Shown here one piece after another: positions 12,825-19,903 of a stretch of DNA of 64,000 nucleotides. Position 1 is the first letter of the stretch; the number at the start of each line of letters is the position of its first letter. The translations under genes were made by a program, and so were the position numbers. Where the stretch lies: assembly GCA_947396885.1 (NCBI GenBank), contig OX377206.1:52621631-52685630 (forward strand). Direction: 5' to 3'. Below the pieces are notes generated by a model that was not told the DNA's origin, searched no databases, and was given only the letters and a program-made list of their open reading frames with translations. Source of the DNA: Heligmosomoides polygyrus polygyrus. Lineage: Eukaryota > Nematoda > Chromadorea > Rhabditida > Heligmosomidae.

Positions 12825-13248
12825 AGTAATAGCTCGGGCGGTTCACCCTCGCGAGCAGCGTAACACTTCGGTGATAACATAGTTTATCCGAACATGTCGA
12901 CACACACACGAAGCGTTCGGGCCCAGAGGTTGACGTCGGCGGGACAGGCGTGGAGGTAGGCGATGGAGGTGGCGGACGTCGGCGACGGCGTGGTGGCGGC
13001 TCAGACCATGGGGCACATCGTAGTCGTCGTCGATGGCGTGGTCCGTCGGTCTCCAGCGGCGGTTGAGGACGGTGCGGGTGGCGTGGCCGAAGGCGAGCGG
13101 GAACCGTCGAGCAGGCGAACTCCCTGGTGGCGGCGGCGGTGGCCTTAAATAGTCTCCGTCAATGCCTGTGGCCAGATCGTGGGTCAACCCTAGGTCAAGT
13201 GACTGGGGGGTACGGTTCTGGCATTTCCGGATTTTCTGAACCCTTACA
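12825..13248 (-). repeat. Element E 3' LTR
   Basis: A 424-bp repeat identical by eye to 19480-19903. On the minus strand a TATTTAAGG TATA-like box lies at about 13143-13151, followed by proline- and GC-rich sequence. The LTR ends CTATTACT. Confidence 0.9.
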
Positions 13249-13260
13249 CCTCCCCCCTTT
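13249..13260 (-). promoter_or_regulatory. Polypurine tract of element E
   Basis: The minus strand reads AAAGGGGGGAGG directly before the TG of the 3' LTR. This is the expected position and composition for the plus-strand DNA primer of an LTR retrotransposon. Confidence 0.88.
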
Positions 13261-13426
13261 AACAAAAGTCCGTCCTCGGACTTCAGCCGAAAAAAACGGT
13301 GAGGTAGGAAAAGGGAAAAAAAAGGGTAATGACTTAGCTATAATTGAAAAAAAGGATAGAAAACTAAAAAAAGAAGAAGGAAAGGATGCTCACCACAGGA
13401 TCAAAGTATCAAAAAAAGATACGTCT

Positions 13427-16992: not shown

Positions 16993-19467
16993 TGCAGTTC
17001 GTCAGAATATCAATTACCTGAAAACATGCAGAATGGTGAAGGGTAGCGGTGTGGTACACTGTAACATTCTTCCAGTGATAGCGATCACGCTAGAGGATCG
17101 AGAAAAGTGACTCATACGACCATCTAACGTGGCAGAAAACCGGCCAAAAGGTGTTGATGCTGAAGGAGGAAACTGATACTGCAATGTGGAAGTTGGCTCG
17201 ACGGCACATGGTGATCCTCTCCCTGACCCAAACAACCTCAAGATGCACAATTAGGATAGAGAAGGCCTGACCACCCTAGATTATCCACATCACGTTAAGG
17301 GGGTACACCCTGATTGATTAGCATTACCTTCTCTTTCAGCACTATGCAGCAAGTTGCTATCGTAGCCACCTAAGCATTCTGACAAAGTCACGCACCCCAA
17401 AATGGTATCTGAGAACGTGTCACTAACGAGCGAACCGCAGGGAGTGTCGGCAGTGACGATCGGCAACGGGTTCCATCGAGTACCCTAAGGTAGGACGCGC
17501 TAACGACAGGAGTTAGCGAACGTGATCATTGATTACGATCAGAAGCAAGGGTGTCGCGGCGCTGTTACTAGAATTCCTGAGAGATATGCTTAGCTTCGAA
17601 GAAGTAACCGTGAGCGAAGGCAACCTTATAGGAAATCAGAATGGAACACAAAGACGCTAAGGAGTCCATGATGCAACATGAGACCGATGGCCACAAAGCG
17701 TCGGTGCCGCCTAGGAAGTACACTGCAAAATGAAAATGCGATGCGGAGGGAGCATGATGCGCTAGCTGGCGGGGTCCCCTTCCCTTTTCTTTGCGAGTAG
17801 CCCCCCCCACAGTCTCGGCAATAGGGGCAGCAGCCCCTTGACGCAATGCTGCAGGGAGGGACGAACACGTAACACACACACACGGATTCGAAAAAAAGGC
17901 AGGACCGAGGCTAGCGCGCCAGCGAAAAACTTATCTGATGACTTCGATACGGCCGTTGGACCAGACGACGCAAGCAGCGCGCGCGAACGCGCGAGAACAA
18001 CGCATCGCAGAGTTGAAACAGGCAACAGGCAAGAAGAACCCGTGGACACATGAAGAAAGGAGAATGGGCCTCAAGAGGCCTAGACACAGCATGACGGAAC
18101 CAACGGGAACCTTCGAGACGCGGGATTTCGCAAGACGCGCCAGGTCCGTGATTGCGGACAACGACCGTCTGCGCAAACTGACGACACAACAGAGGGGCCT
18201 GAGCTGAACAAACGACTAAATAGACGAGGGGGGTTCACCGGACGGGTCTGACTAGGCCTGAAGATGATCACAGTGACTTACCTTATCGATATTCGACGGC
18301 GCTTGGCATCGGGGAACGGGCGACGCACAACGCGTTCGGCGTCACTTCTCAGGGGGCCCTCGCGCCCTTGAAACAGAGGGAGGGGAGAAGTGATCTATCC
18401 CTGGGCAAGCCAATCAGCGGGACCTTAGGTGGATGTTTGCAGTGTTCCGTCTCCTCCGCGGGTGCCGACAGGATCCCGGCAAGATACTGTGACTGAGGGG
18501 CAACAGCCCCGGGGTTGGACGAAGGAAGGATGGAACAGCGGGAGGAGAAGGGCGAACACCATCCAGGTGAGGCCGACCCGACCGAATGGACATGCTACCC
18601 TGCCTCAGGGCGTTTTATAGTCGGATGAATGTGAGGCAGAGCGAAGCCTAGGGACGACCAATTCTGATACCAAAATCACCGAAATCAGTCGGTAAACAAA
18701 CTTGTGAACCCGTACCTCGAGCTTGAGTGAGACCGACCAGGAGGAGTAGGATCTTCAGTCGTCCCGAGAATGAAGCGAGCAACCCATGGAACATTAAACC
18801 AGGAAATGAAACAAACCAACTGCAAACGAACAAATAAACCAAAAACTGGAATAGCGAACTGAACCATGCATAAAACGAACGAGGAAACACCGAAGAGCAT
18901 GCAAACAACTAAAACGCCAGGACTGGACTTAACCACACGGATTTAAGGCTGATCTCATACTGATTTACGACTGATCTGATTCAACACTTACTTCACGAAT
19001 GAGCGCTAACGTAGACTCTTGCACTTGGTACGTACCGCGGCCGACCGCACTACCGGTTCGATTTACTGCAACAGAAGCGCCTATGTCAACTCATGTACTT
19101 TGTACGTACTGCGACCGGTCACTCTGGAAAAGGGGCGCTTATACTCATATACTCTCTTATACTCTCAGACTCCTGTACTTAGTACGCACTGCGACCGACC
19201 GCTCTAAAAAAAACTTCACAAATATAAAATATCTGCCGGCTAAAACAGGGGGATTAGTCAATATTGATCACCCTATGAATTGTGGCTGCAGCCTAAAACA
19301 GATCGACCACGTCAGGCCAGCCCGGGGATCCAACTAGGGCTGGTACCGCGGCTCCTGCGGTAGGAAGTCAGACCGGAAAGGGTGGGAACCGGTCCCTCAT
19401 CCTCAAGCTGAGGCTCATCAGAGCCGAAAAGAAGATAGCCAACTAACCGGCCCACCGAAGCGTCACA
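16993..19467 (-). other. Long non-coding leader of element E
   Basis: About 2.5 kb between PBS and ORF1 without a supported reading frame on either strand. Around 19020-19210 three imperfect repeats of 74-80 bp carry GTACGTAC- or GTACGCAC-like cores followed by GCGACCG. A leader this long could hold packaging or promoter functions, or an intron; this is inference. Confidence 0.5.
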
Positions 19468-19480
19468 CTCGCTGCTACCA
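19468..19480 (-). promoter_or_regulatory. Primer-binding site of element E
   Basis: The minus strand reads TGGTAGCAGCGAG at the 3' edge of the 5' LTR, overlapping it by one base. It starts with the TGG complement of tRNA CCA and resembles the complement of an initiator-Met tRNA 3' end (GCTGCTACCA). It differs from the PBS of the BEL elements in the window, so E belongs to a different priming group. Confidence 0.75.
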
Positions 19481-19903
19481 GTAATAGCTCGGGCGGTTCA
19501 CCCTCGCGAGCAGCGTAACACTTCGGTGATAACATAGTTTATCCGAACATGTCGACACACACACGAAGCGTTCGGGCCCAGAGGTTGACGTCGGCGGGAC
19601 AGGCGTGGAGGTAGGCGATGGAGGTGGCGGACGTCGGCGACGGCGTGGTGGCGGCTCAGACCATGGGGCACATCGTAGTCGTCGTCGATGGCGTGGTCCG
19701 TCGGTCTCCAGCGGCGGTTGAGGACGGTGCGGGTGGCGTGGCCGAAGGCGAGCGGGAACCGTCGAGCAGGCGAACTCCCTGGTGGCGGCGGCGGTGGCCT
19801 TAAATAGTCTCCGTCAATGCCTGTGGCCAGATCGTGGGTCAACCCTAGGTCAAGTGACTGGGGGGTACGGTTCTGGCATTTCCGGATTTTCTGAACCCTT
19901 ACA
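19480..19903 (-). repeat. Element E 5' LTR
   Basis: Identical by eye to 12825-13248. TATTTAAGG TATA-like box at about 19798-19806. Followed by the ATAC duplication. Confidence 0.9.

Follow-up and report, generated by a model that had tools for sequence, protein, structure and literature searches.

A UPF1-like helicase gene, apparently kept under selection, in a gag-pol-less LTR retroelement family of Heligmosomoides polygyrus

Introduction

How does a retroelement come to carry a helicase and no recognizable gag or pol, and how is it copied? The question is raised by a 64-kb stretch of the Heligmosomoides polygyrus polygyrus genome (C60:52621631-52685630 in a 656-Mb assembly; hereafter the window), in which two long terminal repeats (LTRs) enclose a gene, here called HEL, for a superfamily 1 (SF1) helicase resembling UPF1. 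An initial annotation read the locus as a recent, non-autonomous LTR family that had captured, or depended on, a host-type helicase. The first part agrees with what we found, namely several LTR-HEL copies with distinct target-site duplications (TSDs), but the captured host helicase does not: judging by gene order, HEL is not captured in place of gag-pol, and lies 3′ of pol in Ty3/gypsy relatives and in other strongylids. Overall, we consider it probable that the window element is an internally deleted Ty3/gypsy member, copied in trans by gag-pol relatives, whose helicase may act on its own RNA. The case for an internally deleted member draws on sequence evidence, comprising the anatomy of the element, gag relics, a shared deletion, parallel divergence of HEL and pol, recombination, and a low ratio of nonsynonymous to synonymous divergence (dN/dS).

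Results

A broken helicase gene and relics of gag between identical LTRs

The window element has two direct LTRs, a TSD, a primer-binding site (PBS) and a polypurine tract, as an LTR retrotransposon should (Table 1). Its LTRs are identical (424/424 nt) and the 4-bp TSD ATAC stands at both flanks, both as first described. In the sense direction the 5′ LTR begins TGTAAGGGTT and ends ATTACT, and a candidate TATTTAA box lies inside the LTR. The PBS and polypurine tract are likewise present; because the PBS follows the right LTR and the polypurine tract precedes the left LTR, the sense strand is the minus strand, a correction to the initial annotation.

What had been described as a separate, unknown 699-residue open reading frame (ORF) is in fact the first half of HEL. 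In the related copy L009, HEL is a single 1198-aa ORF. The first 589 residues of the 699-aa ORF match residues 1-598 of the L009 protein at 97%, its last 110 residues have no match there, and the 601-aa helicase ORF of the window matches residues 598-1198 at 98%. The 699-aa ORF and the helicase ORF are one gene, broken in the window copy. The N-terminus of the protein is variable; it is followed by a conserved N-terminal domain, which contains a barrel of OB/cold-shock-like type, and then by an SF1 core of UPF1 type. Pfam matches of the window helicase (AAA_12, 8.9e-37; AAA_11, 9.3e-10) bear out the SF1 UPF1-like assignment, and cellular UPF1 is the top entry in PDB, both by sequence and by the fold of a relative. 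AAA_12 dominates; the virus-type domain PF01443 scores poorly, with 0.02 for the window and, for the related locus L031, 3.3e-4, which is at its cut-off. The UPF1 zinc-binding (CH) domain PF09416 is absent from the Pfam matches of HEL protein P0001 up to E 0.1; the genome has three matches to it, all inside 0.8 kb at a separate place, C1:78.22 Mb. A Helitron is ruled out by the LTRs, and neither a Rep nor a Pif1 family is among the Pfam matches (AAA_11/AAA_12 and similar).

Six pieces of gag, protease, reverse transcriptase (RT)-RNase H and integrase taken from the relatives L013 and L017 have no match within the 64-kb window at E<0.01, and at this threshold the element lacks the protease-RT-RNase H-integrase that an autonomous Ty3/gypsy element would encode. 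To this extent the interior is gag-pol-less, as had been stated; the leader does hold two short decayed gag relics, in gag order. No open stretch longer than 120 codons occurs in the sense frames of leader 17050-19478. The relic score was reached by none of 300 shuffles for L013, L014, L015 or L016, and at the protein level the late-gag relic (17910-18158) is weak, with E 0.003 on a 4.5-kb subject.

Helicase copies and gag-pol relatives share cis-signals

Searching the genome with the LTR gave at least 43 matches (40 of 76 candidates scored). A search with HEL, in which 39 of 673 candidates were scored, gave at least 42 matches spread over about 37 places, and this rules out a single-copy host gene. 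Among 20 regions taken for closer study after the LTR search, two of which (L026 and L027) overlap, we found four further two-LTR helicase copies, L009-L012, making five with the window copy. Their TSDs, read in the sense direction, differ among four of the five (GTAT, TGCT, ATAT and CAGT); chance repeats or an assembly artefact are ruled out by four helicase copies each with its own TSD. Of 16 loci inspected, 12 have a readable and matching 4-bp TSD, namely the window copy, L010-L012, L014-L016, L018 and L020-L023; of the others, L013 is mismatched, L009 is unreadable, and L017 and L019 lack one boundary. The HEL frame is open in L009, broken in the window copy, L010 and L011, and short of 532 nt in L012. 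A piece of a second helicase copy, about 775 nt long (L009 1-497; L029 7726-8501), adjoins the L009 5′ LTR without a gap.

The initial annotation held that finding the repeats apart from the helicase would count against it, and this is partly the case: single LTRs with matching TSDs occur at L020, L022 and L023, and in L013-L017 related LTRs accompany pieces of gag, pol or both. LTRs lacking the helicase are ordinary for an LTR family. At L018 (4235-5080), two family LTRs stand head to tail with no interior, flanked by a matching 4-bp TSD, CAAG; the initial bases of the second LTR are missing.

Across the relatives L013, L017 and L031, the gag-pol-type genes encode a CCHC gag, an aspartic protease, a Ty3-like RT-RNase H and an H2C2 integrase. 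The late gag of L013 is 88% identical over 442 columns to the Heligmosomoides polygyrus protein P0019. HEL has no match below E 0.5 in L013 or L017. A pol-bearing relative sharing the element's ends, which the initial annotation had proposed to look for, therefore exists: the gag-pol relatives share LTR ends and leader with the window family, most share the PBS, and L013 shares LTR, PBS, polypurine tract and leader alike. The first 463 nt of the window leader are 87.8% identical to L013, and the polypurine end GGGGGAGG also stands before the 3′ LTR in L009-L013, L015 and L016. With cis-signals in common with a gag-pol element and gag-pol itself lost, the window element has the make-up of a non-autonomous Ty3/gypsy derivative. 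The common LTR ends, PBS, polypurine end and L013 leader (88% identity) suggest that gag-pol relatives, having these cis-signals too, most likely copy the window family in trans.

Related elements carry HEL downstream of pol

Several relatives carry HEL together with gag-pol genes, so that both kinds of element persist in the same genome. In L030, identical repeats, each 813 nt or longer, enclose an RNase H-integrase ORF followed by a HEL ORF of 1484 aa. L031 has a gag-CCHC-env-like-protease ORF, an RT-RNase H ORF and a HEL ORF, with no match to integrase, and L032 a decayed RT-RNase H-integrase followed by an open HEL (78% identical). In L015 and L016 the order is gag, protease, HEL remnants, 3′ LTR. 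The RT of the related elements is Ty3-like. Gene models of other nematodes agree: RT-RNase H-integrase-HEL in Ancylostoma duodenale (P0015), integrase-HEL and gag-CCHC-RNase H-HEL in Oesophagostomum dentatum (P0020 and P0025), and gag-HEL in Cylicocyclus nassatus (P0016). The gene models P0053 and P0054 likewise fuse gag-like segments with HEL. HEL relatives occur in eleven named genera, which we take to be strongylids (Cooperia by partial match), and public strongylid gene sets carry them as 'DNA2/NAM7 helicase-like' proteins; a taxonomy look-up places Heligmosomoides in Strongyloidea. Across the 37 of 91 pairs that were comparable, from 14 sources, identity in HEL rises with identity on the pol side (Spearman 0.80; 0 of 2000 permutations), and HEL therefore seems to have travelled together with pol.

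Between the gag zinc knuckle and protease of L031, within one ORF (6074-9892, minus strand), lies a stretch resembling a viral fusion glycoprotein (PF24664, 3.8e-4); by eye, O. dentatum P0025 and Cooperia P0059 contain similar text.

Constraint, a shared gag deletion and recombination

The two-LTR helicase copies fall into subfamily A (L009) and subfamily B (L010, L011 and L012). Between A and B, HEL has dN of 0.070-0.080 and dS of 0.83-0.88, giving dN/dS of 0.079, 0.080 and 0.097 (bootstrap limits 0.064-0.095, 0.065-0.098 and 0.078-0.121), and its two halves behave alike. The ratio is 0.101-0.126 when the recombinant window copy replaces L009. HEL diverged at low dN/dS while gag decayed, so that the helicase-only retroelement apparently kept HEL under selection. 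The gag relics are about 270 nt apart in both helicase-only subfamilies, versus about 1340-1360 nt in L014; given this equal spacing, a single ancestor that had already lost most of gag probably gave rise to both.

Compared with L009 in 250-nt steps, the window copy is 97.6-100% identical (one edge step, 96.4%) outside two steps at 14653-14154, which are 84-86% identical to L009 and 99.2-99.6% to subfamily B. The window copy is, on these identities, a recombinant of both subfamilies. Template switching between co-packaged RNAs would be the simplest reading, and the tract fits co-packaging of the subfamilies. Between A and B, LTRs are 96-100% alike and interiors 52-86%, and at L033 a HEL 99% identical to that of L009 is paired with an LTR that shares only about 74% identity with that of the window copy. 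Upstream of the truncated helicase copy at L033 lies a 328-aa ORF (3-989) that by eye resembles a mariner-type transposase.

Features of the window

Near the left end of the element lies a tandem array (11814-12263; 77-nt unit, 5.8 copies, 97% matches) and, just beyond the element, a 301-aa ORF with a DUF1759 match (10742-11647, minus strand; E 1.1e-12), a domain that we presume to be that of BEL/Pao-type gag proteins.

Table 1 Features of the window element and the basis on which each was placed
Feature	Position	Strand	Basis
Whole LTR element	12825-19903	sense = minus strand	LTRs, TSD, PBS, polypurine tract
Left TSD copy, ATAC	12821..12824	.	sequence flanking 3′ LTR
3′ LTR, 424 nt	12825..13248	-	repeat identity
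Polypurine tract AAAGGGGGGAGG, adjoins 3′ LTR	13249..13260	-	sequence
HEL part 2, UPF1-type SF1 core, 601-aa ORF, residues 598-1198 of L009 protein	13427..15232	-	
Recombinant tract in HEL, L010/L011/L012-type, edges approximate	14100..14654	-	stepwise identity
699-aa ORF holding HEL part 1	14893-16992	-	ORF list, match to L009
HEL part 1, variable N-terminus and conserved N-terminal domain, residues 1-598	15226..16992	-	match to L009
Long leader, about 2.4 kb	17050..19478	-	upstream of HEL
Relic of late gag	17910..18159	-	DNA match 18102-18159 to L013 and L014
Relic of gag start	18432..18561	-	matches L014, L015, L016
PBS TGGTAGCAGCGAGTG	19466..19480	-	first PBS base = final base of 5′ LTR
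5′ LTR, 424 nt	19480..19903	-	repeat identity
Right TSD copy, ATAC	19904..19907	.	sequence flanking 5′ LTR

Discussion

Weighing the explanations

That a host UPF1-like gene was lately captured by a gag-pol-less LTR carrier, in the manner of single-gene transductions, could draw on the uninterrupted ORF in L009 and the UPF1-like core. We rejected it as extremely unlikely: HEL stands 3′ of pol in relatives and in other strongylid gene models, its divergence tracks that of pol, it does not match the zinc-binding family of UPF1, which in this genome is matched at the single C1 site, and the gag relics mean that the carrier formerly had gag. It is very unlikely, too, that HEL is kept for a host service, for example against viruses or other elements, with the LTR copies as by-products of a domesticated gene. 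A hookworm HEL clade from Necator and Ancylostoma without pol in its gene models (P0017, P0022, P0028, P0031 and P0032; SH-aLRT 100 in a quick tree) possibly consists of domesticated helicases, and adjoins an O. dentatum gag-pol-HEL model (SH-aLRT 89); but the copies studied here are recent, differ in position and TSD, and belong to a set of HEL matches spanning several families.

A further possibility is that the low dN/dS arose in full-length gag-pol-HEL elements, the helicase-only subfamilies being formed separately or refreshed by recombination, with HEL as passive cargo. The visible recombination, the near-identical LTRs around divergent interiors and the mixed pairing at L033 would suit such a history, as would the broken or deleted HEL in four of the five two-LTR copies and the differently sized gag deletion in L016. 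Set against these are the equal relic spacing and colinear leader blocks of both subfamilies, and a divergence that is even along HEL except for the one recombinant tract; we regard passive cargo as rather unlikely. Several observations nevertheless weigh against the internally deleted, trans-copied element that we favour. Just one of the five two-LTR copies has a full-length open HEL frame, and the gag-pol relative L013 is spread over several frames and has a mismatched TSD. The 37 identity pairs are non-independent and mix different pol-side domains. The stretches that match gag are short: with L017 as the comparison, 7 of 300 shuffles equal the score, and the subfamily B relics alone are weak (E 8e-4 at best). 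In L016, itself deleted, the gag pieces are only about 654 nt apart, and gag deletions therefore arose more than once. Comparisons inside subfamily B, each based on 20-29 changes, give dN/dS of 0.63-1.02, with no detectable constraint, and a helicase-only lineage that repeatedly recombined with full-length elements could look as if it were under selection. The absence of constraint after the last insertions in B is as expected of dead copies; together with the low A-B ratio it indicates that the constraint on HEL acted in the replicating lineage, either of helicase-only elements or of fuller elements recombining with it.

A possible role for the helicase

On the favoured explanation, the ancestor would belong to a strongylid Ty3/gypsy lineage whose fuller members have gag, protease, RT, RNase H and integrase followed by a HEL of about 1200 aa; the window family would have lost gag-pol but retained HEL together with the LTRs, PBS, leader and polypurine tract. 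By analogy, HEL may act on RNA of the element itself and somewhat favour the molecule from which it was translated, a step that we put forward tentatively, at slightly below an even chance. It might keep the long, unspliced genomic RNA from being degraded or retained in the nucleus, help its export, and/or unwind it for reverse transcription. Because its own HEL frame is broken, the window copy would rely on other copies for the HEL protein as well.

Since L013 and L017 have no HEL match below E 0.5 and the window copy has no gag-pol match at E<0.01, the two might form a two-part retroelement, comparable to a multipartite virus genome, in which gag-pol and a required helicase reside on separate, mutually dependent LTR elements co-packaged through common LTRs, PBS and leader. 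We consider this unlikely. The helicase-only lineage raises the question of how a gene on a deleted element stays under selection, for which the protein would have to prefer its own RNA in cis, the element and gag-pol elements would have to depend on each other, or recombination would have to refresh the gene.

Relation to known systems

These elements add an RNA-surveillance-type helicase to the LTR-retroelement gene repertoire. HIV-1 recruits UPF1 to export its genomic RNA (PMC4693258), and an element carrying its own UPF1-like enzyme makes dependence on UPF1 and export testable in animals. Pipelines that drop repeat models with non-transposon domains, as described in the methods of a study on small RNAs from strongylids, Heligmosomoides among them (PMC13195028), could lose the HEL family. 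Among the titles, abstract openings and passages that searches of open-licence PubMed Central full text turned up, we found no description of a UPF1-type helicase in nematode LTR elements.

LARD, TRIM and BARE-2 are non-autonomous LTR derivatives that retain cis-signals and are supplied with missing proteins in trans. To our knowledge they carry no coding gene or a damaged gag-pol, and not a single retained accessory enzyme with low dN/dS. The window family resembles Ty3/gypsy elements (Metaviridae) in its LTRs, 4-bp TSD, PBS and polypurine tract and in the gag-pol domains of its relatives, and differs in the extra UPF1-type helicase gene of about 1200 aa 3′ of integrase, which it kept while losing gag-pol. 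The Caenorhabditis elegans element Cer1 is likewise a nematode LTR element with an extra protein, the 517-aa CERV, made from a spliced mRNA and serving export of its own genomic RNA; unlike the window copy it has gag-pol, and 'helicase' does not occur in the text that describes it (PMC10309623). LTR elements of bdelloid rotifers carry extra, non-envelope ORF3 genes beside gag and pol, encoding a DEDDy exonuclease, a GDSL esterase and others (Rodriguez et al. 2017, PMC5408684), and in that text the word helicase occurs solely in a reference title. The insect retroelements with SF1 helicases are mainly long interspersed nuclear elements (TRAS, Jockey) with the virus-type PF01443 (PMC5563155, PMC6338049); the later of these papers, from 2019, also mentions that in Diptera and Hymenoptera there are fusions with proteins of LTR retrotransposons (PMC6338049). 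In both the insect and the present elements, an SF1 RNA helicase has long been retained by a retroelement; here, the carriers are nematode LTR elements, and the helicase has a UPF1-type core with a conserved N-terminal domain and is nearest, in PDB, to cellular UPF1.
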